Positions 6,661-23,495 of a stretch of DNA of 64,000 nucleotides are shown here, piece by piece (the stretch's first letter is position 1; every line of letters begins with the position of its first letter). A program made the position numbers and the translations under genes. The DNA comes from Aggregatilinea lenta (GTDB lineage: Bacteria > Chloroflexota > Anaerolineae > Aggregatilineales > Aggregatilineaceae), in contig NZ_BFCB01000003.1 in assembly GCF_003569045.1 (NCBI RefSeq), positions 434,001-498,000 of the forward strand, given 5' to 3'. The notes beneath the pieces are model-generated. The model searched no databases, had not been told where the DNA came from, and saw only the letters and a list, made by a program, of their open reading frames with translations.

Positions 6661-6795
6661 AACGACGCGATGGTAGAAATAGGTGAAGGCTGCCGGATGC
6701 GTCGGGGGGAAAACCGGTGCAACTCCGGTGCTGGGCCGCAACTGTGAGGCCGGATAACTTACCCGGTCAAGTCAGGATACCCGCTGCGAGACTTA
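6661..6795 (+). promoter_or_regulatory. Cobalamin (B12) riboswitch aptamer
   Basis: The conserved core of the cobalamin family is present in order: GCCGGATGCG at about 6690, GGGGGAAAACCGGTGCAACT, CCGGTGCTGGGCCGCAACTG, then the B12-box-like GTCAGGATACCC at about 6771. Bound corrinoid should change the folding of the RNA just downstream, where an intrinsic terminator begins at 6811. The element lies between rdhA1 and the fmdB-like/rdhA2/rdhB genes on the same strand, so it controls a corrinoid-dependent dehalogenase operon rather than B12 synthesis or uptake genes. Exact 5' and 3' limits are approximate. Confidence 0.93.
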
Positions 6796-6810
6796 TCTCT
6801 ACGAGCCTAG

Positions 6811-12743: not shown

Positions 12744-12773
12744 TTGACGGATGGGGTCTAAACCGCCTATCCT
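12744..12773 (+). promoter_or_regulatory. Putative promoter of the lysine operon leader
   Basis: TTGACG (12744-12749) and TATCCT (12768-12773) are 18 bp apart. Transcription would begin near 12780, about 50 nt before the leader-peptide ATG and about 165 nt before the attenuator terminator, a normal size for an attenuation leader. Confidence 0.55.
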
Positions 12774-12832
12774 AGTGCCAGCGTTAGAACGACACCCGCA
12801 GATCCTGCGGAGATGGTATCGACGACTTCACC

Positions 12833-12922
12833 ATGAACGATCCCTGTTTTCAACTTGTAAGCCAGATTAATCTGGTTAAGCAGAGCAAGAAGGAGACCAC
12901 GTCTAGCGGCGATTGCCGGTAG
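12833..12922 (+). CDS. Lysine operon leader peptide (29 codons)
   Basis: This short ORF runs from ATG 12833 to TAG 12920-12922 and encodes 29 residues with three Lys codons among five positions (K16, K19, K20; all AAG). The stop lies 23 nt before the terminator arm. Tandem codons for the end product of the operon are the signature of attenuation leader peptides, and a leader-peptide attenuator has been described for the Thermus thermophilus lysine cluster. A weak point is the ribosome-binding site: the nearest purine run (GCGGAG, about 12808) is rather far from the ATG. A seven-codon ORF at 12813 overlaps the ATG and might couple translation. Confidence 0.7.
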   Translation: MNDPCFQLVSQINLVKQSKKETTSSGDCR

Positions 12923-12954
12923 CGTTCTTGGTGTTAGTACCTTCCAAGCGCCTC
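12884..12954 (+). promoter_or_regulatory. Attenuator and antiterminator RNA segments of the lysine leader
   Basis: Three mutually exclusive pairings can be read. Segment 1, CAAGAA (12886-12891), lies in the AAG AAG Lys codons and is complementary to segment 2, TTCTTG (12925-12930). Segment 2 can instead pair as GCG-tt-CTTGG (12922-12931) with segment 3, CCAAGCGC (12944-12951), forming an antiterminator. Segment 3 is also the 5' arm of the terminator. Ribosome stalling at the Lys codons would free segment 2 and switch the operon on. A ribosome reaching the stop at 12920 would cover segment 2 and allow termination. Confidence 0.75.
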
Positions 12955-12986
12955 CCCGAGCACATCGCCGGGCGAGGCGCTTTTTG
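12946..12986 (+). terminator. Attenuator terminator of the lysine operon
   Basis: AAGCGCCTC (12946-12954) pairs perfectly with GAGGCGCTT (12974-12982). An inner CCCG/CGGG extends the stem to 13 base pairs with one bulge, and a run of T follows. It sits 62 bp before lysW with no complete gene upstream except the leader peptide, so it is an attenuator rather than an end-of-operon terminator. Confidence 0.88.
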
Positions 12987-13047
12987 TTTGTCCAGTTGTC
13001 CAATGTCCGGTGAGCAAGCACGAAGCAGAGTAAGGGAGATCCAAACG

Positions 13048-13218
13048 ATGTTGCAGACGGAATGTGTGGAATGTGGCGCGGCAATTGAACTGCCCGAAGA
13101 CGTGATGCAGGGCGAAATTCTGACCTGCGGCGACTGCGGCGCGGAACTCGAAGTGATCGAACTGGAACCGCTGACGGTCGATCTGGCCCCGGTAGAAATG
13201 GAAGATTGGGGCGAATGA
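13048..13218 (+). CDS. lysW: Amino-group carrier protein LysW
   Basis: LysW carries alpha-aminoadipate, and later intermediates, on its C-terminal glutamate during lysine synthesis. The 56-residue protein has two C-x2-C zinc ligands (TECVECG and LTCGDCG) and ends in the diagnostic EDWGE. I chose the ATG at 13048, with AAGGGAGA upstream, because the longer frame from 12913 would run through the attenuator. Its stop overlaps the lysX start. Confidence 0.95.
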
Positions 13219-14072
13219 GCGTCGGTATTCTGTGCAGCCGGATTCGCGTCGAAGAGAAACTGCTTTTCGAGGCGTTCGAGTCGCTCGGCGTGGCGGTGAC
13301 GCGCCTGGACGAGCGGGAAATTACGGCGCGCGTGGGCGACTATGCCGCGCCGGTCGATGTGGTGCTGGAACGCAGCGTGAGCACCAGCGCCGGGCTGGTC
13401 GCGTCGATGCTGCTCGAAGCGGCGGGCGTGCACGTCATCAACAACAGCAGCACGGCCAGCATCTGCGCGGATAAAATCCGCACCTCGCTGGCGCTGGCGG
13501 CGGCAGACGTGCCCCAGCCGCGCACCGAAGTCGCGCTCAGCCCCGAAGCGGCCCTGGAGGCCATCGAGCGTCTGGGTTACCCGGTCGTGCTCAAACCCCC
13601 GGTCGGCTCGTGGGGGCGGCTGCTGGCGCGCGTCAACGACCGCGACGCGGCGGAAGCGGTCATCGAGCACAAAGAAGTGCTCGGCGGCGTCGCGCATCAT
13701 GCGTACTACATCCAGGAATACGTCGAGAAACCGCTGCGCGACATCCGCGCGTTCGTGGTTGGCATAGAGACGATCTGCGCGATCTACCGCACCTCGCCGC
13801 ACTGGATCACCAATACGGCGCGCGGCGGGCAAGCCTCGAACTGCCCGGTCACGCCGGAGATCGCGGACTTGTGTACGCGGGCGGCGCTGGCCGTCAGCAG
13901 CGGTGCAGGCGGCGTCCTGGCCATCGACCTGTTCGAAGATCCCCAACGCGGTCTCCTCGTAAACGAAGTCAACCACACCATGGAATTCAGAAACAGCATC
14001 ACCACCACCGGCGTCAACATCCCCCAGCGCATCGCACAATTTGTACTCGAATCGGCGGGGGTGCCCGCATGA
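13215..14072 (+). CDS. lysX: Alpha-aminoadipate--LysW ligase LysX
   Basis: LysX is an ATP-grasp ligase of the RimK group that joins alpha-aminoadipate to the C-terminal Glu of LysW. The 285-residue protein shows the N-terminal domain start [13 protein letters not shown], the ATP-grasp segments [15 protein letters not shown] and [15 protein letters not shown], and the Mg-binding end AIDLFE...[12 protein letters not shown]. The start overlaps the lysW stop (ATGA), so translation is coupled. A function in arginine synthesis (ArgX) is possible for this family, but the presence of the homocitrate pathway genes favours LysX. Confidence 0.93.
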
Positions 14073-15127
14073 GCGGCGGCGCGGATCGTCTGACGGTGGG
14101 CGTGGTCGGCGCGTCCGGCTATGCGGGCGGCGAGCTGCTGCGACTGCTGCTGGGGCATCCCGGCGTGGAAGTGACGCAGGTCACGTCCGAGCGCAGCGCG
14201 GGCAAATTCGTCCACCAGGTGCACCCGCACCTGCGCGGGCGCACGACGCTGCGTTTCGTCAGCCGCGACGGGCTGCAACCCTGCGACGTGCTGTTCCTGG
14301 CGCTGCCGCACGGCCAGTCGCAGGAGCACATCGCGCAGTATGCGGCGCTCGCGCCCCGCATCGTGGACCTGAGCGCGGACTTCCGCCTGCGCGACGCGGC
14401 GGACTACGCGGCAACGTACGGGCACGATCACGCGGCCCCTGAGCGGCTGGCGGATTTCGCCTACGGCCTGCCGGAGCTGCACCGCGACGCCCTGCGCGGC
14501 GCGTCGTACGCCAGCGGCGTCGGCTGCAACGCCACCGCGACCACGCTCGCGCTGTGGGCAGTGGTCCGGGGCGGCCTGCTGGTCCCCGGCCAGCCGGTGA
14601 TCGTGGACATCAAGGTCGGCAGCAGCGAGGGCGGCAACACTCCCAGCGAAGCCAGCCACCACCCGGTGCGCAGCGGCGTCGTGCGGCCCTACGCGCTGAC
14701 CGGCCACCGCCACGAGGCGGAAGTACGCCAGAACCTCGCCCCATGCGGCATGTACGACGTGCGCATGGCCGTGACCAGCGTCGAGATGGTGCGCGGCGTG
14801 GCGGCGGCGGCCTACGTCTCGCTGCCGTCCGGCCTGACCGAGCGCGACCTGTGGAAATGCTACCGTGAGGCGTGGAACGATGAGCCGTTCGTGCGCGTCG
14901 TGCACGAAAAATCCGGCATTCACCGCCACCCGGAACCCCGCCCGCTGATCGGCACGAACTACGCCGACGTGGGCTGGGACTACGACCCGGTGACCGGGCG
15001 CGCGGCGCTGCTGTGCGCGCTGGATAACCTGGGCAAAGGCGCGGCGGGATCGGCAGTCCAATGTATGAACCTGATGTGCGGCTTCGACGAGACGACCGCG
15101 CTGGACTTTGGAGGCATCTACCCATGA
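14069..15127 (+). CDS. lysY: LysW-gamma-aminoadipyl phosphate reductase LysY
   Basis: LysY reduces LysW-aminoadipyl phosphate to the semialdehyde with NADPH. It is homologous to ArgC: the N-terminal dinucleotide fold reads [21 protein letters not shown], and the catalytic Cys lies in [14 protein letters not shown]. The C-terminal part has [12 protein letters not shown]. The start is the ATG at 14069 overlapping the lysX stop, although the frame is open much further upstream. At 352 residues it has the normal family length. Confidence 0.93.
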
Positions 15128-15951
15128 CCGGCACGACACACGTTTTGAAACTGGGCGGCGGCGCGGGCGTCGATCACACCCGCACGCTGCGGAATCTGGC
15201 GCAACGCATCCAACGCGGCGAGTGCTGGGTGCTGGTCCACGGCACGAGTGCGGCGGCCAACGACCTCGCGCAGCAGGTCGGCTACACGGTGCAGACCATC
15301 ACCAGCCCCGGCGGGCACACCAGCCGCTACACCGACGCGCGCATGATCGAGATCTACTGCGCGGCGGCGGCCTCGGTCAACCAGCGCCTGACGGCGGAAC
15401 TGGCGGGCCTGGGCGTGCGCGCGGTCGGGCTGGCTGGGCCGACGGTCATCTCTGCGCGGCGCAAAGAGGCGATCCGCGCACTGCGTAACGGGCGGCCCGT
15501 GCTGGTGCGTGACGACTTTTCGGGCGCGATTACGGGCGTGGACGGCGATGTGCTGGAACACCTGCTTGAGTCCGGCGTGACGCCGGTCATCGCGCCGGTG
15601 GCGCTGGGCGCGGCCTTCGAGCGGCTGAACGTGGACGGCGATCTCGTTGCGGCGACGGTCGCCCACGCGCTGGACGCGGACACGCTGACCATCCTCAGCA
15701 ACGTGCCCGGCCTGCTGCGCGACGTGGACGATCCCGGCTCGCTGGTGGCGCAGTTCGGCCTGAACGAGCTGGCGCGTTACGAACCGCTGGCCCAGGGTCG
15801 CATGAAGAAAAAACTGCTGGCCGCGCAGGCCGCCGGGGTCGCGCGCGTGATCCTGGCCGATTCGCGCCTGGACGATCCCATCGACGCGGCGCTGGCCGGG
15901 GCCGGAACGCATATCGTGAACGAGGTGCGGCATGTCGAGCATGCTTTCTGA
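15124..15951 (+). CDS. lysZ: LysW-aminoadipate kinase LysZ
   Basis: LysZ is an amino-acid kinase of the N-acetylglutamate kinase group and phosphorylates LysW-bound aminoadipate. The N-terminus VLKLGGGAG and the HGTSAAAN turn form the phosphate-binding region. TVISARRKEAIRA and the late KKKLLAAQAA segment, with the conserved Lys, are also visible. The ATG at 15124 overlaps the lysY stop, and the end overlaps lysJ by 20 bp. At 275 residues it is of normal length. Confidence 0.92.
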   Translation: MTGTTHVLKLGGGAGVDHTRTLRNLAQRIQRGECWVLVHGTSAAANDLAQQVGYTVQTITSPGGHTSRYTDARMIEIYCAAAASVNQRLTAELAGLGVRAVGLAGPTVISARRKEAIRALRNGRPVLVRDDFSGAITGVDGDVLEHLLESGVTPVIAPVALGAAFERLNVDGDLVAATVAHALDADTLTILSNVPGLLRDVDDPGSLVAQFGLNELARYEPLAQGRMKKKLLAAQAAGVARVILADSRLDDPIDAALAGAGTHIVNEVRHVEHAF

Positions 15952-17125
15952 TCGCGTGATGGACTGGGCGGCGCTGGAAGATACGCACAGCAGCGGCACG
16001 TACGTCAAACGCGACGTGCAGATCGTGCGCGGGCAGGGCGCGACGCTGGAAGACGCCGAAGGCCGCCGTTACATCGACTGCGTGGGCGGGCAGGGCGCGG
16101 CCAACCTGGGCCATGGCCACCCCGCCGTGCTGGAAGCGATCCGCGCGCAGTCGGCGGAGCTGATCACCTGCCCGGAGCTGTTTCATAACCCCGTGCGGGC
16201 GCGCTATCAGGCGGCGCTGTGCGAGGCGGCAGGCATGGCCCGCGTCTATCTGTGCAACAGCGGTGCGGAAGCGGTCGAGGCGGCGCTGAAGGCGGCGCGG
16301 CTGGCGACCGGGCGCGACGGCTTCGTGGCAACCATGCGCGGCTTTCATGGCCGCACGCTGGGCGCGCTGAGCTTCACCTGGGAGCGGCACTACCGCGAGC
16401 CGGTCGGCCCGTTGTTGATGTCGACCGTGACCCACGTTCCGTTCAACAACGTCGAGCGGCTCGCAGCAGCGCTGAACGACACTATCGCGGCGGTGATCGT
16501 CGAGGTGGTGCAGGGCGAAGGCGGCGTGCATCCGGCGGAGGCGGGCTATCTGCGCGCCGTGCAGGACCTGTGCCGCGCCAACGGATCGCTGCTGATCGTG
16601 GACGAGATTCAAACCGGCTTCGGGCGTACGGGCACACTGTTCGCTTACGAGCAGGACGGCATCGCGCCGGACGTGCTGTGTCTCGCCAAGAGCATGGCGG
16701 GCGGTCTGCCAGTGGGCGCGGCGCTGCTGGCGGAGACGGTCCCCGCGCTGCCGCCCGCGTCACACGGCAGCACGTTCGGCGGCAATCCGCTGGCATGCGC
16801 GGCGGGGCTGGCGGTGTTGGACGTGCTGCAAAACACCGACCTGATCGAGCGGGCGCGGACGCGCGGCGAGGCCGTGCGCGATCACCTGCGGGCCAATTTA
16901 CCGGGATCGGTCGCGCGTGACGTGCGCGGGCGCGGCCTGATGATCGGGATCGAGCTGCGCGGCAGGGTCGCTCCGGTGCTGTCGGCGCTGCAAGCGCGCG
17001 GCGTCCTGGCGCTGCCCGCCGGGAAAACGGTGCTGCGGCTGCTGCCGCCGCTGGTCATTACGGACGACGAACTATGGCAGGCGGTGGACACCGTCGAGGA
17101 GACTTTGAGCGATGCCGCTGAATAA
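15932..17125 (+). CDS. lysJ: LysW-gamma-lysine aminotransferase LysJ
   Basis: LysJ is a PLP-dependent class III aminotransferase related to ArgD. It converts LysW-aminoadipate semialdehyde to LysW-lysine with glutamate as donor. The 397-residue protein shows the PLP phosphate-binding region NSGAEAVEAALKAAR, the aromatic GFHGRTLG, VDEIQTGFGRTG with the PLP Asp, and the Schiff-base Lys in CLAKSMAGGLPVGA. It overlaps both neighbours, so it is well inside the operon. Acetylornithine activity as a second function is known for some relatives and cannot be excluded. Confidence 0.92.
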   Translation: MSSMLSDRVMDWAALEDTHSSGTYVKRDVQIVRGQGATLEDAEGRRYIDCVGGQGAANLGHGHPAVLEAIRAQSAELITCPELFHNPVRARYQAALCEAAGMARVYLCNSGAEAVEAALKAARLATGRDGFVATMRGFHGRTLGALSFTWERHYREPVGPLLMSTVTHVPFNNVERLAAALNDTIAAVIVEVVQGEGGVHPAEAGYLRAVQDLCRANGSLLIVDEIQTGFGRTGTLFAYEQDGIAPDVLCLAKSMAGGLPVGAALLAETVPALPPASHGSTFGGNPLACAAGLAVLDVLQNTDLIERARTRGEAVRDHLRANLPGSVARDVRGRGLMIGIELRGRVAPVLSALQARGVLALPAGKTVLRLLPPLVITDDELWQAVDTVEETLSDAAE

Positions 17126-18248
17126 CTACGCGATTATCGAAAGCACGCTGCGCGAAGGCGAGCAGTTCAGCACGGCGACGTTCAGTACGGCGCAGAAGTT
17201 GGAAATCGCCGGGATGCTCGACCAGTTCGGCGTCGAGATGATCGAAATGACCTCCCCCTGCGCCTCGCCGCAAAGCGAAGCGGACATCCGCGCCGTCGTG
17301 GCACAAAACCTCAACGCGCGCATCCTGACGCACATCCGCTGCAACCGCGACGACGCCCTGCGCGCGCTCGACACCGGCGTGCATGGCATCGACATCGTGA
17401 TCGGCACGTCGCCGCAGCTCATGGAGCACAGCCACGGCAAATCCATCCGGCAGATCGTCGATCTGGCCGCCGACGTGCTGAGCTTCGTGCGCGAGCAGGC
17501 GCCGGACATCATTCTGCGCTTCAGCACCGAAGACACGTTCCGCAGCCGCGAATCGGACCTGCTGCGCGTCTATCTGGCCGTGGCGGACCTGGGGCTGGTG
17601 AACCGGCTGGGCGTAGCGGACACGGTCGGGGTGGCGATGCCGCAGCAGGTCGAGGCGATGGTGCGCCAACTCGTACGCCTAACGCGGCTCGACGTCGAGT
17701 TCCACGGCCACAACGACAGCGGCTGCGCGATCGCCAACGCCTGCGCCGCGCTCGAAGGCGGCGCGACGCACGTCGATACGACCGTGCTGGGCATCGGCGA
17801 GCGCAACGGCATCACGCCGCTGGGCGGGCTGATGGCGCGGCTGTACACGCTCGACCGCTCGTACGTCGAGAAATACAACCTGCCGCTGCTGCCGCAAGTC
17901 GATGCGATGATCGCCAATATCTGCGGGCTGTCGATCCCGTTCAACAACTACATCACCGGGGCGAGCGCCTTCATCCACAAGGCGGGCATTCACGCCAAAG
18001 CGGTGCTGGCCGATCCGGGCACGTACGAAATTCTGCGGCCCGAAGACTTCGGACTGGTGCGCGAGGTCGCCATCGGTCACCGGTTGACCGGGTGGAACGC
18101 GGTGCGCCAGCGCGCGCAGACGCTGGGCCTGAACCTGGACGACGCCACGCTGCGCGCCATCACGCAGGACGTGAAGCGCCGCGCCGACGTGCAGCCGCTC
18201 AACCTGACCGAAGTCGATCAGTTGCTAATGGCCGCGGCGGGGCAGTAA
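17112..18248 (+). CDS. lys20: Homocitrate synthase
   Basis: This enzyme condenses acetyl-CoA with 2-oxoglutarate, the first step of the aminoadipate pathway. The 378-residue DRE-TIM protein begins with STLREGEQF and shows the metal-binding [18 protein letters not shown] and [10 protein letters not shown]. This pattern is shared by homocitrate synthases and related to isopropylmalate and citramalate synthases. The neighbouring homoaconitase-type and LysW genes decide for homocitrate synthase. Feedback inhibition by lysine is known for the Thermus enzyme and is plausible here. Its start overlaps the end of lysJ. Confidence 0.9.
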
Positions 18249-18250
18249 GC

Positions 18251-19513
18251 ATGAGCACAGGACGCACCTTTGCGGAAAAAGCGCTGGCCCGCGCCGCGGG
18301 CCTGGACGACGTACGCGCCGGGGATCTGATCGACGTCGCGCCGGACGTGATGCTCAGTCACGACAACTCCGCCGCGATCCGGCGCATCTTCGAGGAGACG
18401 GGCGCGCCGCGCATCGCCTACCCGGAGCGCGTGGCGATCACGCTCGATCACGCCGTGCCTGCGCCGACGACCAAACACGCCCAGAACCACGCCGAGATCC
18501 GCGAGTGGGTGCGGCAGCAGGGCATCGCGCACTTTTACGAGATCGGGCGCGGCATCTGCCACCAGGTGCTCAGCGAGGAAGCGGTCGTGCTGCCCGGCGA
18601 GACGATCTTCGGCGCGGACAGCCACACCACGCACTTCGGCTGGATGGGCGCGTTTGGCGCGGGCATCGGGCGCACGGAGATGGCCGCGCTGTGGGCCACT
18701 GGCGAGCTGTGGGTGCGCGTGCCGGAGGCGATGCGCATCACGCTGACCGGGACGCTGCCGCCGTGGGTGACGGCCAAAGACCTCAGCCTGCGCCTTCTGG
18801 GCGACCTGGGAGCGGACGGCGGGCTGTACCGCTCGGTGGAGTTCGCCGGGGACGGGATCGTCTCGCTCTCGGTCGAGTCGCGCATGGTGATCCCGAACAT
18901 GATGGCCGAGTTTGGCGCGAAAAACGCCTACCTGCCGCCGGACGAGGGTGTGTTCGAGTACCTGGAGCCGCACCGGACGCGCGACTATACGCCGCTCTAT
19001 CCCGACGCGGACGCCGTTTATGCCGCCGAATACACGCTCGACGTCAGCGCGCTGGAACCGCAGATCGCGCGTCCGCACCGCCCGGACCGCGTCGTGTCGC
19101 TCTCCGAGGTGGCGGGCCAGCCGGTGCAGCAGGCGTTTTTGGGCACGTGCACCAACGGGCGGATCGAGGATCTGCGCGCGGCGGCGGCGGTGCTGCGCGG
19201 CCAGCACGTGCGCTGCCGGATGGTGGTCATTCCCGCCAGCTCGCAGGTGTATTTGCAGGCGGCGCGTGAAGGGCTGATCGAGGTGTTTCTGGAGGCGGGC
19301 GCGGCCATCGGCACGCCGGGCTGCGGGCCGTGTATGGGCAATCACATGGGCATCCCCGCGCCGGGCGAGGTCACGATCAGCAGCGCCAACCGCAACTTCC
19401 GGGGGCGCATGGGCACGCCGGAATCGGACGTGTATCTCGCCAGCCCCGCCGTGGTGGCGGCCAGCGCGATCTGCGGCCAGATTGCCGATCCGAGGGAGGT
19501 GGTGCGGGAGTAA
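18251..19513 (+). CDS. hacA: Homoaconitase large subunit
   Basis: This LeuC-family Fe-S hydrolyase subunit interconverts homocitrate and homoisocitrate together with the small subunit at 20424. The 420-residue protein carries [17 protein letters not shown] and the three Fe-S cysteines in GTCTNGR and [16 protein letters not shown] binds substrate. I take the ATG at 18251, two bases after the homocitrate synthase stop; an open frame upstream is a shadow. LeuC itself is almost indistinguishable by eye, so the assignment depends on the operon. Confidence 0.88.
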
Positions 19514-19657: not shown

Positions 19658-20395
19658 ATGAACACGATCGATGCCGCGCCGCAGCGGCTGTACCTGATGC
19701 AGTTGAGCGCCGCGTCTGTGCCCGTCGCGCCGGGGCGATCGCTGGACATGGTGTGCGTGTGTTACCTCGTCGAGCTGAGCGACGGTCGGCGCGTGCTGAT
19801 CGATACCGGCCTGCCGGACGGCGCGTCGCTGATGGGTCTGCCGTCCATCGAGGGGAGCCTCACCGTGATCGACGCGTTGGCCGAGTTGGACCTGCGCCCG
19901 GCGGACATCGACGTGTTGGTTTGCACGCACTTCGACGTGGACCACGTGGGTTTTCACGATGCCTTCCCGCAGGCGGCGTGCATCGTGCAGCGGCGGCACT
20001 ACGAGCAGGCGCGCGGCGGCGATGCGCGGTATGCGGCGGCGCGCGAGCACTGGGATCACCCCGCGCTGCGCTACCGGCTGGTGGACGGCGACGTCGAGTT
20101 GTTTCCTGGCCTGACGCTGATCGAGACCAGTGGGCACGCGCCGGGACACCAGTCCGTGCTGGTGCGGCTGCCGCACACGGGTCCGGTGCTGCTGGCGATC
20201 GACGCGGTGATGATGGCGCGGCTGTTCACGCCCGATCGTGCGGCGTGGCCGATGGATGACAACGAGGCCGAACTGCGTGCCAGCACGCAGAAGCTGCTCG
20301 ACGTGGCCGCGCACGAGGGCGTCACCCTGACCGTGTTCGGGCACGATGGCGAACAGTGGCGCACGCTCAAACGCGCGCCGGAGTTTTACGATTGA
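19658..20395 (+). CDS. Metallo-beta-lactamase-fold hydrolase inserted in the lysine operon
   Basis: The 245-residue protein has the MBL-fold metal motif as HFDVDH (with Asp in place of the middle His of HxHxDH), a downstream SGHAPGH and a late AIDAV Asp region. It resembles N-acyl-homoserine-lactonase-like members. AGGGGAGAA precedes the ATG. It lies between the two homoaconitase subunits, 144 bp after hacA and 28 bp before hacB, and is read in the same direction. No step of the lysine pathway needs such an enzyme. A lactone or thioester housekeeping role is conceivable but unsupported. Confidence 0.85.
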   Translation: MNTIDAAPQRLYLMQLSAASVPVAPGRSLDMVCVCYLVELSDGRRVLIDTGLPDGASLMGLPSIEGSLTVIDALAELDLRPADIDVLVCTHFDVDHVGFHDAFPQAACIVQRRHYEQARGGDARYAAAREHWDHPALRYRLVDGDVELFPGLTLIETSGHAPGHQSVLVRLPHTGPVLLAIDAVMMARLFTPDRAAWPMDDNEAELRASTQKLLDVAAHEGVTLTVFGHDGEQWRTLKRAPEFYD

Positions 20396-20423
20396 TCGAA
20401 ACCCCTGGATCGAGAGGGGAACA

Positions 20424-20948
20424 ATGGGTAATTCGCAGGACGGATCATGGACCACGCACCGCGTGTGGGTCTACGGCGACGACGTGAACACCGACGTGAT
20501 TTTCCCGGGCCGCTATACGTACACGGTCAGCGCGGCGAACGAGGTCGCGGCGCACGCGCTCGAAGACCTCGATACGTCGTTTGCGGCGCAAGTGCAGCCG
20601 GGCGACGTGATCGTGGCCGGGCGCAACTGGGGTAACGGCAGCAGCCGCGAGCAGGCCGTGACCGCGCTCAAGTACGCGGGGGTGGCGGCGGTCATTGCGG
20701 AGTCGTTCGCGCGCATCTACTACCGCAACTGCATCAACCAGGGCCTGCTGCCGGTGGTGTGTCCCGGTCTAGCCGCGCGCCTGCATACCGGCGACACGAT
20801 CCAGATCGACCGCGCCGCCGGGCGGTTGCTCGCGGCGGGACAGGAATACACCATCTCGCGCCTGTCGCCCTCCGTGCAGGCCATCCTGGACGCGGGTGGG
20901 CTGGTCCCCATGCTCCAACGGCGCTTCAAAGGAGAATCCGTTTCATGA
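20424..20948 (+). CDS. hacB: Homoaconitase small subunit
   Basis: This LeuD-type swivel-domain subunit (174 residues) shows YGDDVNTDVIFPGRY, GRNWGNGSSREQA with the substrate-recognition loop, and FARIYYRNCINQGL. It completes the homoaconitase whose large subunit is at 18251. I chose the ATG at 20424, with GAGAGGGGA upstream, over the longer open frame from 20346. Its stop overlaps the dehydrogenase start at 20945. Confidence 0.9.
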   Translation: MGNSQDGSWTTHRVWVYGDDVNTDVIFPGRYTYTVSAANEVAAHALEDLDTSFAAQVQPGDVIVAGRNWGNGSSREQAVTALKYAGVAAVIAESFARIYYRNCINQGLLPVVCPGLAARLHTGDTIQIDRAAGRLLAAGQEYTISRLSPSVQAILDAGGLVPMLQRRFKGESVS

Positions 20949-21916
20949 CACACCTGATTACACTCATCTCCGGTGACGGCATCGGCGCGGAAGTGATTCC
21001 GGCGGCGCGGACCGTGTTGGAAGCGCTCGATCTGCCGCTGCGCTTCCAGGAAGCGGATGCAGGCTTCGGCACGTTCGAGCGCGTGGGCGACGCGCTGCCG
21101 CCTGCCACGCTCGACGCCTGCGCCGCCAGCGACGCGATCCTGTTCGGCGCGACCAGCTCGCCCATGGCTAAGGTGGCGGGCTACCAAAGCCCGATCCTTA
21201 ACCTGCGCCGCCACTTTGACCTGTTCGCCAACCTGCGCCCGGCGGTGGGCGAGGGTGTCGATCTGCTGATCGTGCGCGAAAACACCGAGGGCCTCTACAG
21301 CCGCCGCGAGCGCGTGGAGGACGGCGGCGCGACCGCTATTGCGGAACGCGTAATCACGGCGGCGGCATCCGAGCGTATCACGCATGTGGCGTGCGAGCAG
21401 GCGCGCGCCCGTCGCGGCAAACTGACCATCGTGCACAAGGCCAACGTGCTCAAGGAGACGTGCGGCCTGTTCCGGCGCGCTGCTTTTGGGGTGGCGACGG
21501 ACTATCCCGATCTGGCCGTCGAGGAGCTGCTGGTTGATACGGCGGCGATGCGGCTGGTGCAGGACCCAGGGCGTTTCGACGTGCTGGTGACGACGAATCT
21601 GTTCGGGGACATTTTGAGCGATCTTGCCGCCGGGATGACCGGTGGGCTGGGTATGGCCCCGTCGGCCAACGTGGGAGCGGGACACCCGGCGCTGTTCGAG
21701 CCGGTGCACGGCAGCGCGCCGGACATCGCGGGTCAGGGGATCGCCGATCCGCGTGCTGCGATCCTCAGCGCGGCGATGCTGCTCGACTTTCTGGGGTACA
21801 CAGAGGCGGCCTCGGCGCTGCGCCGCGCGACCTATGCCACGCCGCACACGGGGAACACGGCGCACACCGCGCGGGCGATCCTGGCGCAGATGGAACGAGA
21901 CGGCGCGCATGTCTGA
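20945..21916 (+). CDS. Homoisocitrate dehydrogenase
   Basis: This beta-decarboxylating dehydrogenase (323 residues) oxidises homoisocitrate to 2-oxoadipate with NAD. Family features are [14 protein letters not shown] at the N-terminus, [22 protein letters not shown], the catalytic IVHKANVLK and [16 protein letters not shown], which holds the metal-binding Asp residues. [14 protein letters not shown] and the cofactor-binding end complete the fold. Isopropylmalate and isocitrate dehydrogenases look alike; the operon favours homoisocitrate. The ATG overlaps the hacB stop. Confidence 0.87.
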
Positions 21917-22958
21917 TCTGCTGATTGAGCTGGTCCGGCGCACGAGTCTGTCGGGGCAGGAAGCGCCCGCCGTGCGCTATCTGGTGGCGTGGATGGCCGC
22001 GCACGGCTTCGACGCGATCGTGGACGAGGCGGGCAGCGCCTGCGGCGTGCGCGGGTCGCAGGACGCGCCGCATACGCTGATGCTGTTGGGGCACATCGAC
22101 ACCGTGCCGGGCGAGATCCCGGTGCGCGTGGAGGACGGCGTGCTCTATGGGCGCGGCAGCGTGGATGCCAAGGGGCCGCTGTGCGCCTTCACGGAAGCCG
22201 CCGCCAGCGCCGCGATCCCGGACGGCTGGCGCGTGGTCGTCGTCGGGGCGGTCGAGGAGGAAAGCGCGACGAGCAAGGGCGCGCGCACTGTGCGCGACTG
22301 CTTCACGCCGGATGCTTGCATCATCGGAGAGCCGAGCGGGGTGGAGCACGTCACGCTGGGCTACAAGGGCCGCCTGCTGGTCGATTTTACGCTGCGCCGC
22401 CCGGTCGCGCACACCTCCCGGCCAGAGCCGACCGTCGGCGCGTTGGGGGCGGCGTTCTGGAGTCAGGTCGCGGCGTGGTGCGAGGCGCAAAACAAAGGGG
22501 CGGAGCGCGCCTTCGATCAGGTGCTGCCGAGCCTGCGCAGTATCAATACCGAGTCGGACGGCTTCCACGACACGGTGCGCCTGACGGTCGGGTTCCGCCT
22601 GCCACCGCGGCTGTCGCCGGAAGCGGTGCGGAGCGCGATCGCGCCCTTCGCCCCGGCGGACGCCGAACTGCGCACCTACGGGCCGGAGCAGGCTTACCAG
22701 GGCGACAAAAACAACGCGCTCGTGCGCGCACTTCTGGCCGCAATCCGCACGCAGGGATCGCGCCCCGGCTTCGTGCTGAAGGGCGGCACGAGCGACATGA
22801 ACGTGGTCGGCCCCGCCTGGAACTGCCCGATCGTCGCGTACGGTCCCGGCGACAGCGCGCTCGACCACACGCCCGACGAGCACATCTCGCTGGCGGAATA
22901 CGCGCAGGGCGTCGCCACGCTGCGCCACGTGATCGAGCACCTGCCCGCAGGAATGTAA
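21909..22958 (+). CDS. lysK: LysW-lysine hydrolase LysK
   Basis: LysK releases lysine from LysW, the last step of the pathway. The 349-residue M20-type metallopeptidase shows [11 protein letters not shown] (metal-binding His and the catalytic-pair Asp), [29 protein letters not shown] with the catalytic Glu-Glu, and [17 protein letters not shown] near the C-terminus. The start ATG lies within the last codons of the dehydrogenase gene. It ends the operon; the mscL promoter region follows. Confidence 0.92.
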
Positions 22959-23063: not shown

Positions 23064-23495
23064 ATGCTCAAAGAGTTTCGTGACTTCATCATGCGCGGTA
23101 ACGTGCTCGATCTCGCCGTTGGTATCATCATCGGTCTGGCGTTCACAACCGTTGTGAACTCGCTGGTGAACGATATCATCATGCCGCCGATCGGCGTGCT
23201 GATCGGCGGCCTCGACTTTTCGGCCATTGTGATCACGCTGAAGGAAGCCCAGGGCGACGATCCGGCGGTGACCATGAACGTCGGCGTGTTCATCAACGCT
23301 ATCATTAACTTTTTGATCGTCGCCCTGGCCGTGTTTATGCTGGTCAAAGGCGTGAATAGTGCAATGGAGCAGATGCGCCGCCGGCAAAAGGCCCAAGACG
23401 CCGTCGCGCCGCCGGAGCCGACCGTGGACGAGAAGACACTCGCCGCGTTGGAGCAGTTGAACGGTACTTTGGAGAAGCTCGAACACAAATTGTGA
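23064..23495 (+). CDS. mscL: Large-conductance mechanosensitive channel MscL
   Basis: MscL opens at high membrane tension to release osmolytes. The 143-residue protein starts MLKEFRDFIMRGNVLDLAVG, the diagnostic N-terminus. It has TM1 (about 15-45), a periplasmic loop, TM2 (about 75-98) and a charged cytoplasmic helix bundle. AAGGAGG lies before the ATG. A weak promoter (TTGCGC at 22979 and CATAAT 18 bp later) suggests independent transcription. A strong terminator follows. Confidence 0.95.
   Translation: MLKEFRDFIMRGNVLDLAVGIIIGLAFTTVVNSLVNDIIMPPIGVLIGGLDFSAIVITLKEAQGDDPAVTMNVGVFINAIINFLIVALAVFMLVKGVNSAMEQMRRRQKAQDAVAPPEPTVDEKTLAALEQLNGTLEKLEHKL

Follow-up and report, generated by a model that had tools for sequence, protein, structure and literature searches.

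The lysine cluster of Thermus thermophilus is reportedly controlled by leader-peptide attenuation. Until they described their Firmicutes example in 2010, the authors of PMC2965389 were aware of no leader-peptide system beyond the Proteobacteria and Actinobacteria. A survey of Rfam regulatory RNAs that included five Chloroflexi genomes had leader motifs available only for His, Leu, Thr and Trp (PMC3766115), and the tandem attenuators of mgtCBR, which respond to different signals, have been termed a singular example (PMC3641672). We found no account of leader-peptide attenuation in the Chloroflexota or Anaerolineae in the literature searched, in which subscription journals are thinly covered, and the remark in the preliminary description of this DNA that no such description was known to it for the phylum holds within that partial coverage. 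Here we propose, on comparative and computational evidence, that the LysW-type lysine operon present in the 64 kb stretch of Anaerolineae DNA analysed (the window) is very probably controlled by ribosome-mediated transcription attenuation in response to charged tRNA-Lys.

The leader ORF begins with the ATG at 12833 and ends with a TAG at 12920-12922, and the last of its Lys codons ends at 12892. The arrangement of these codons, K-QS-KK with three Lys in five codons, is weaker than the KKxKK usual among relatives, and the KQNKKK cluster of one related locus (L016) is a near variant of it. The start codon is uncertain because there is no well-placed Shine-Dalgarno sequence; a GGAG lies about 20 nt upstream of the ATG (12809-12812). 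The predicted terminator stem (12946-12982; -27 kcal/mol) is followed by a T-run and stands 65 nt upstream of lysW, and folding of the attenuator region beats 200 of 200 shuffles (z = -4.1). The genes downstream match family models (Table 1), and by these matches are predicted to form a complete LysW-type alpha-aminoadipate lysine operon. The preliminary description had reported the 29-codon ORF with Lys codons at positions 16, 19 and 20, a terminator with a T-run formed by its segments 3 and 4, and a LysW-type operon behind them; reading of the sequence bears out the first, the strong stem at 12946-12982 the second, and the family-model matches the third. Among other features of the window, the ORF translations include a metallo-beta-lactamase-like ORF (19658-20395) between the two homoaconitase subunit genes and an MscL-like ORF (large-conductance mechanosensitive channel; 23064-23495) directly behind the lysine operon, and a cobalamin riboswitch is located at 6677-6802 on the + strand (44.2 bits).

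Table 1. Predicted features of the leader region and lysine operon, in window coordinates
Feature	Position	Strand	Basis or remark
Promoter-like site, TTGACG-18-TATCCT	12744-12773	+	Sequence; similar sites in relatives
Leader ORF, 29 codons + TAG	12833-12922	+	Read from sequence; translation MNDPCFQLVSQINLVKQSKKETTSSGDCR
Regulatory Lys codons 16, 19 and 20	12878-12892	+	Sequence; AAG 12878-12880, AAG AAG 12887-12892
Segment 1:2 pairing, CAAGAA 12886-12891 with TTCTTG 12925-12930	12886-12930	+	6-bp match
Antiterminator 5' strand, core GGCGAT 12908-12913	12907-12919	+	Comparative analysis and folding
Small hairpin, CGGC(GATT)GCCG	12907-12918	+	Folding model; probability about 1 up to 12964
Segment 2:3 pairing, 12922-12931 with 12944-12951	12922-12951	+	Apical part of antiterminator hairpin
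Intrinsic terminator and T-run	12946-12988	+	Outer stem 12946-12954/12974-12982, inner stem 12955-12958/12969-12972
Antiterminator 3' strand, core ATCGCC 12964-12969	12956-12970	+	Loop and upper stem of terminator
lysW, amino-group carrier protein	13048-13218	+	TIGR01206 above cut-off
lysX	13215-14072	+	TIGR02144 above cut-off
lysY, ArgC-like reductase	14069-15127, approximate start	+	TIGR01850 above cut-off
lysZ, [LysW]-aminoadipate kinase	15121-15951, approximate start	+	NF010659 above cut-off
lysJ-type aminotransferase	15932-17125	+	TIGR00707 above cut-off; LysJ model under its cut-off
Homocitrate synthase	17112-18248	+	TIGR02146 above cut-off
Homoaconitase large subunit	18236-19513, approximate start	+	TIGR01343 above cut-off
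Homoaconitase small subunit	20418-20948, approximate start	+	TIGR02087 above cut-off
Homoisocitrate dehydrogenase-like	20939-21916, approximate start	+	TIGR02088 best match, under its cut-off
lysK, [LysW]-lysine hydrolase	21909-22958, approximate start	+	NF003367 above cut-off

Since the Lys arrangement in the window is modest when taken alone (three Lys in five codons), the terminator could be thought to belong to an upstream gene, or to act as a constitutive brake, and the Lys codons to be accidental. However, when the 133 terminator-like sites found on the two strands of the 64 kb are scanned for an ORF with three or more Lys within six codons and a stop no more than 135 nt from the T-run, this unit is the sole hit, and it is kept across many families with a covarying antiterminator; a chance association is therefore extremely improbable.

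For comparison, searches for lysW covered 61 related genomes and searches for lysX covered 396 from the class as well as named genomes; the upstream regions extracted constitute, after removal of near-identical sequences, a set of 140 distinct lysW loci. These loci share descent, for which the controls are that removal and a similarity-reduced set. At 76 of the 140 an intrinsic terminator is preceded by a short Lys-rich ORF, with three or more Lys within six codons; this, together with stem covariation in the antiterminator, is the outcome that the comparison of upstream regions proposed beforehand was expected to give. Lysine is the enriched residue in the leader ORFs: at the same threshold Arg reaches 43 loci and most other residues far fewer, and where at least four of six codons are required Lys is found at 51 loci and Arg, the next residue, at 12. 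The KKxKK pattern is kept among the relatives, and the use of both AAG (379 codons) and AAA (56) indicates that it is the amino acid that is kept rather than the exact RNA. Tandem pairs of Lys units, which the preliminary description did not recognise as the usual form in relatives, are present at 44 of the 76 loci; the other 32 have a single unit, as does the window. Upstream of the first leader, a TTGACA/TATAAT-like site scoring at least 9 of 12 is found at 67% of loci (9% of shuffles), and one scoring at least 10 of 12 at 46% (2% of shuffles); the similar site in the window is probably the promoter of both leader and operon.

About half of the class-wide lysW loci have no leader by the scan used, and it detected none at those loci of Caldilineaceae, Chloroflexia and Ktedonobacteria that were examined. 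The scan may overlook units with unusual starts; upstream of one lysW gene (L029) there is a KKGGKK cluster and a terminator with no clear in-frame ATG, GTG or TTG, and an unusual start codon is possibly used. Two Chloroflexus-type loci (L109 and L113) have two adjacent copies of lysW upstream of lysX.

An intrinsic terminator before the operon would also be expected if a metabolite riboswitch or a T-box were in control and the Lys ORF incidental, and the class does have T-boxes upstream of trpE. However, neither the Rfam covariance model of the lysine riboswitch nor that of the T-box (RF00230) recognises the leader in the window or any of 20 lysW loci from relatives, and because trpE T-boxes were detected in the same group, the method is able to see T-boxes. 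Both candidates were rejected, and as the Lys-specific enrichment in 76 loci and the fixed spacing to the antiterminator also argue against this explanation, we give it almost no credence.

The conserved antiterminator is predicted to consist of 12907-12919 paired with 12956-12970, a helix that excludes the terminator. In an alignment of 15 proximal leaders (A1) the corresponding helix, between alignment positions 47-53 and 126-132 (GGCGATT with AATCGCC), is paired in 94% of cells. The antiterminator together with a second helix, P1, has 10 pairs that changed on both sides as compared with 4.4 in shuffles, exceeding all 500 of them; sliding the partner strand abolishes the antiterminator covariation signal, and RNAalifold picked the antiterminator helix unprompted. 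The core helix differs in sequence from family to family (CGGCGAT with ATCGCCG, GCGGTAAACC with GGTTTACCGC, GCCAGACTGG with CCAGTCTGGC, and GATCTGGAT with GTCCAGATC) and its pairing is kept. Because sequence and helices change between families, a covariance model of the proximal unit (R1) matched only close relatives across the 396 genomes, and a partner-swap test was therefore used. Pairing with a unit's own strand is favoured over pairing with one swapped in from another locus, by 6.7 kcal/mol for proximal units and by 5.4 kcal/mol for distal ones (permutation p <= 0.0002), with the same outcome in the similarity-reduced set.

The preliminary description proposed a different switch made of three mutually exclusive pairings, in which 12922-12931 with 12944-12951 (segments 2:3) is the antiterminator and 12886-12891 with 12925-12930 (segments 1:2) its protector. 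All of these pairings exist on paper, and segment 2:3 does form, with a probability of about 0.78 in a partial transcript, where it makes up the apex of a longer hairpin. However, 2:3 lacks covariation (64.9% paired in A1, against 63.5% when shuffled), the own partner in pairings of this type is not superior to swapped partners (p about 0.2-0.5), and p < 0.05 is reached in 3% of units, which is the chance level. Segment 1:2 has a probability of about zero wherever the folding model can evaluate it; the homologous helix of the relatives, P1, is well supported in their distal units and weak in proximal units and in the window. The part of the 2:3-containing hairpin that is conserved is its base, 12907-12919:12956-12970, which had been overlooked, and it is very unlikely that the switch operates by exactly the scheme first described.

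The spacing fits control of the antiterminator by a translating ribosome. In 78% of units, as compared with 29% of shuffled controls, the distance from the last Lys codon to the start of the antiterminator core is 10-18 nt, and in the window the antiterminator 5' strand begins 14 nt after that codon. Since a ribosome shields roughly nine bases beyond the codon in its A site, the antiterminator strand would be just exposed during a stall at Lys. Across the units the stop codon is at or behind the antiterminator 5' element, so that a terminating ribosome would cover this strand or have just cleared it. When folding is modelled with polymerase at 12974 and a Lys-stalled ribosome, the pairing of 12908-12913 with 12964-12969 has a probability of 0.78-0.99; without a ribosome it is 0.04, because the segment stays in the small hairpin, which in the model sequesters the antiterminator 5' strand before the terminator is transcribed. 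A ribosome placed at the stop codon in this model hides the 5' strand, and the RNA folds into the terminator. The same change is seen in 105 units, where arrival of the ribosome at the stop reduces the number of antiterminator pairs from 16 to 4 in proximal and from 12 to 4 in distal units, although the loss is complete in only about a third. In the complete transcript at equilibrium the terminator is always the more stable structure, so the decision must be kinetic, as is likewise assumed for known attenuators.

A stalled ribosome need not signify a shortage of tRNA-Lys, and many units have conserved C-terminal motifs, PDxRSG and WRRL, after the Lys cluster, as might be expected of an arrest peptide in which the nascent chain causes the stall, for example through a polybasic sequence or in response to a small-molecule signal. 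At the RNA level, however, these motifs fall on the antiterminator strand, and they vary between families, the Lys codons alone being common to all, and we consider an arrest peptide very unlikely.

For sensing of charged tRNA-Lys, we infer translation of the leader, stalling, a response to lysine and a kinetic outcome as follows. When lysine is plentiful, the ribosome would pass the Lys codons, reach the stop at 12920 and cover 12907-12919, and the terminator (12946-12988) would fold and end transcription. When charged tRNA-Lys is short, the ribosome would stall at codon 16, 19 or 20 and its front would lie near 12890-12902, leaving 12907-12919 free to pair with 12956-12970 while the terminator's 3' arm has yet to be synthesised; with the antiterminator formed, RNA polymerase would continue into lysW. 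If the leader is not translated, upstream folding would hold the segment in the small hairpin and the terminator would tend to win. Several features of attenuators as a class are found here, namely codons for the product amino acid in a short ORF, a terminator between the leader ORF and the first gene, and a conserved antiterminator that excludes the terminator; by geometry and the folding model, and in part in some relatives, a ribosome at the Lys codons frees the antiterminator strand and one at the stop codon masks it. The conserved Lys ORF and terminator and the covarying antiterminator thus support the reading of this region as amino-acid attenuation given in the preliminary description.

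Leaders of other amino-acid genes were also observed. A short ORF with a His cluster and a terminator lies upstream of hisG in the same genome (L270, G000:C1, at 149659), and many relatives (among hisG loci L259-L282) have an ORF with a HAHAHHHH-like cluster and a terminator; judged by these sequences, histidine attenuation probably exists in the class too. In several hisG leaders an ATG stands 7-8 nt behind a TATACT -10 box, which suggests a leaderless leader ORF. Neither ilvB nor trpE yielded a leader peptide when the regions before them were scanned in the same way. T-box leaders of trpE are present in the same genome and its relatives (L246, at 1029-1339, and loci L244, L245, L253-L256 and L258), and together with the leader-peptide units they indicate that the class mixes T-box and leader-peptide attenuation.

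We think it fairly probable that the Anaerolineae have conserved a serial arrangement of attenuators for one and the same amino acid that provides two independent Lys checkpoints, with histidine leader-peptide attenuation also present in the class. If so, transcription of the operon would require polymerase to clear both checkpoints, which would tighten the off-state and steepen the response, and because there are many natural versions with one unit and with two, the effect of stacking on dynamic range is testable. Tandem units for one amino acid are unusual, and leader-peptide attenuation would, on strong comparative evidence, extend to the Chloroflexota.

The closest counterpart is the Thermus lysine attenuator, which is said likewise to combine a leader peptide with Lys codons, a terminator and genes of the LysW/alpha-aminoadipate pathway; it belongs to another phylum and is likened here by architecture, and the Anaerolineae units differ in being often tandem and placed before lysW. 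The Firmicutes His-leader attenuators (PMC2965389, PMC9413887) are also leader-peptide systems outside the Proteobacteria found by comparison, although for another amino acid and in another phylum. Two short ORFs serially arranged in one leader are likewise present in Salmonella mgtCBR (PMC3641672), where they respond to two different signals, ATP and proline, whereas in the Anaerolineae each unit has Lys codons and a terminator of its own. With the attenuators of the Proteobacteria (trp, his, thr, leu, ilv and phe) these units share regulatory codons, mutually exclusive antiterminator and terminator, and a masking stop codon, but here the amino acid is lysine, the units occur in tandem, and the antiterminator, which begins some 15 nt past the final Lys codon, has the terminator's loop and upper half as its partner.
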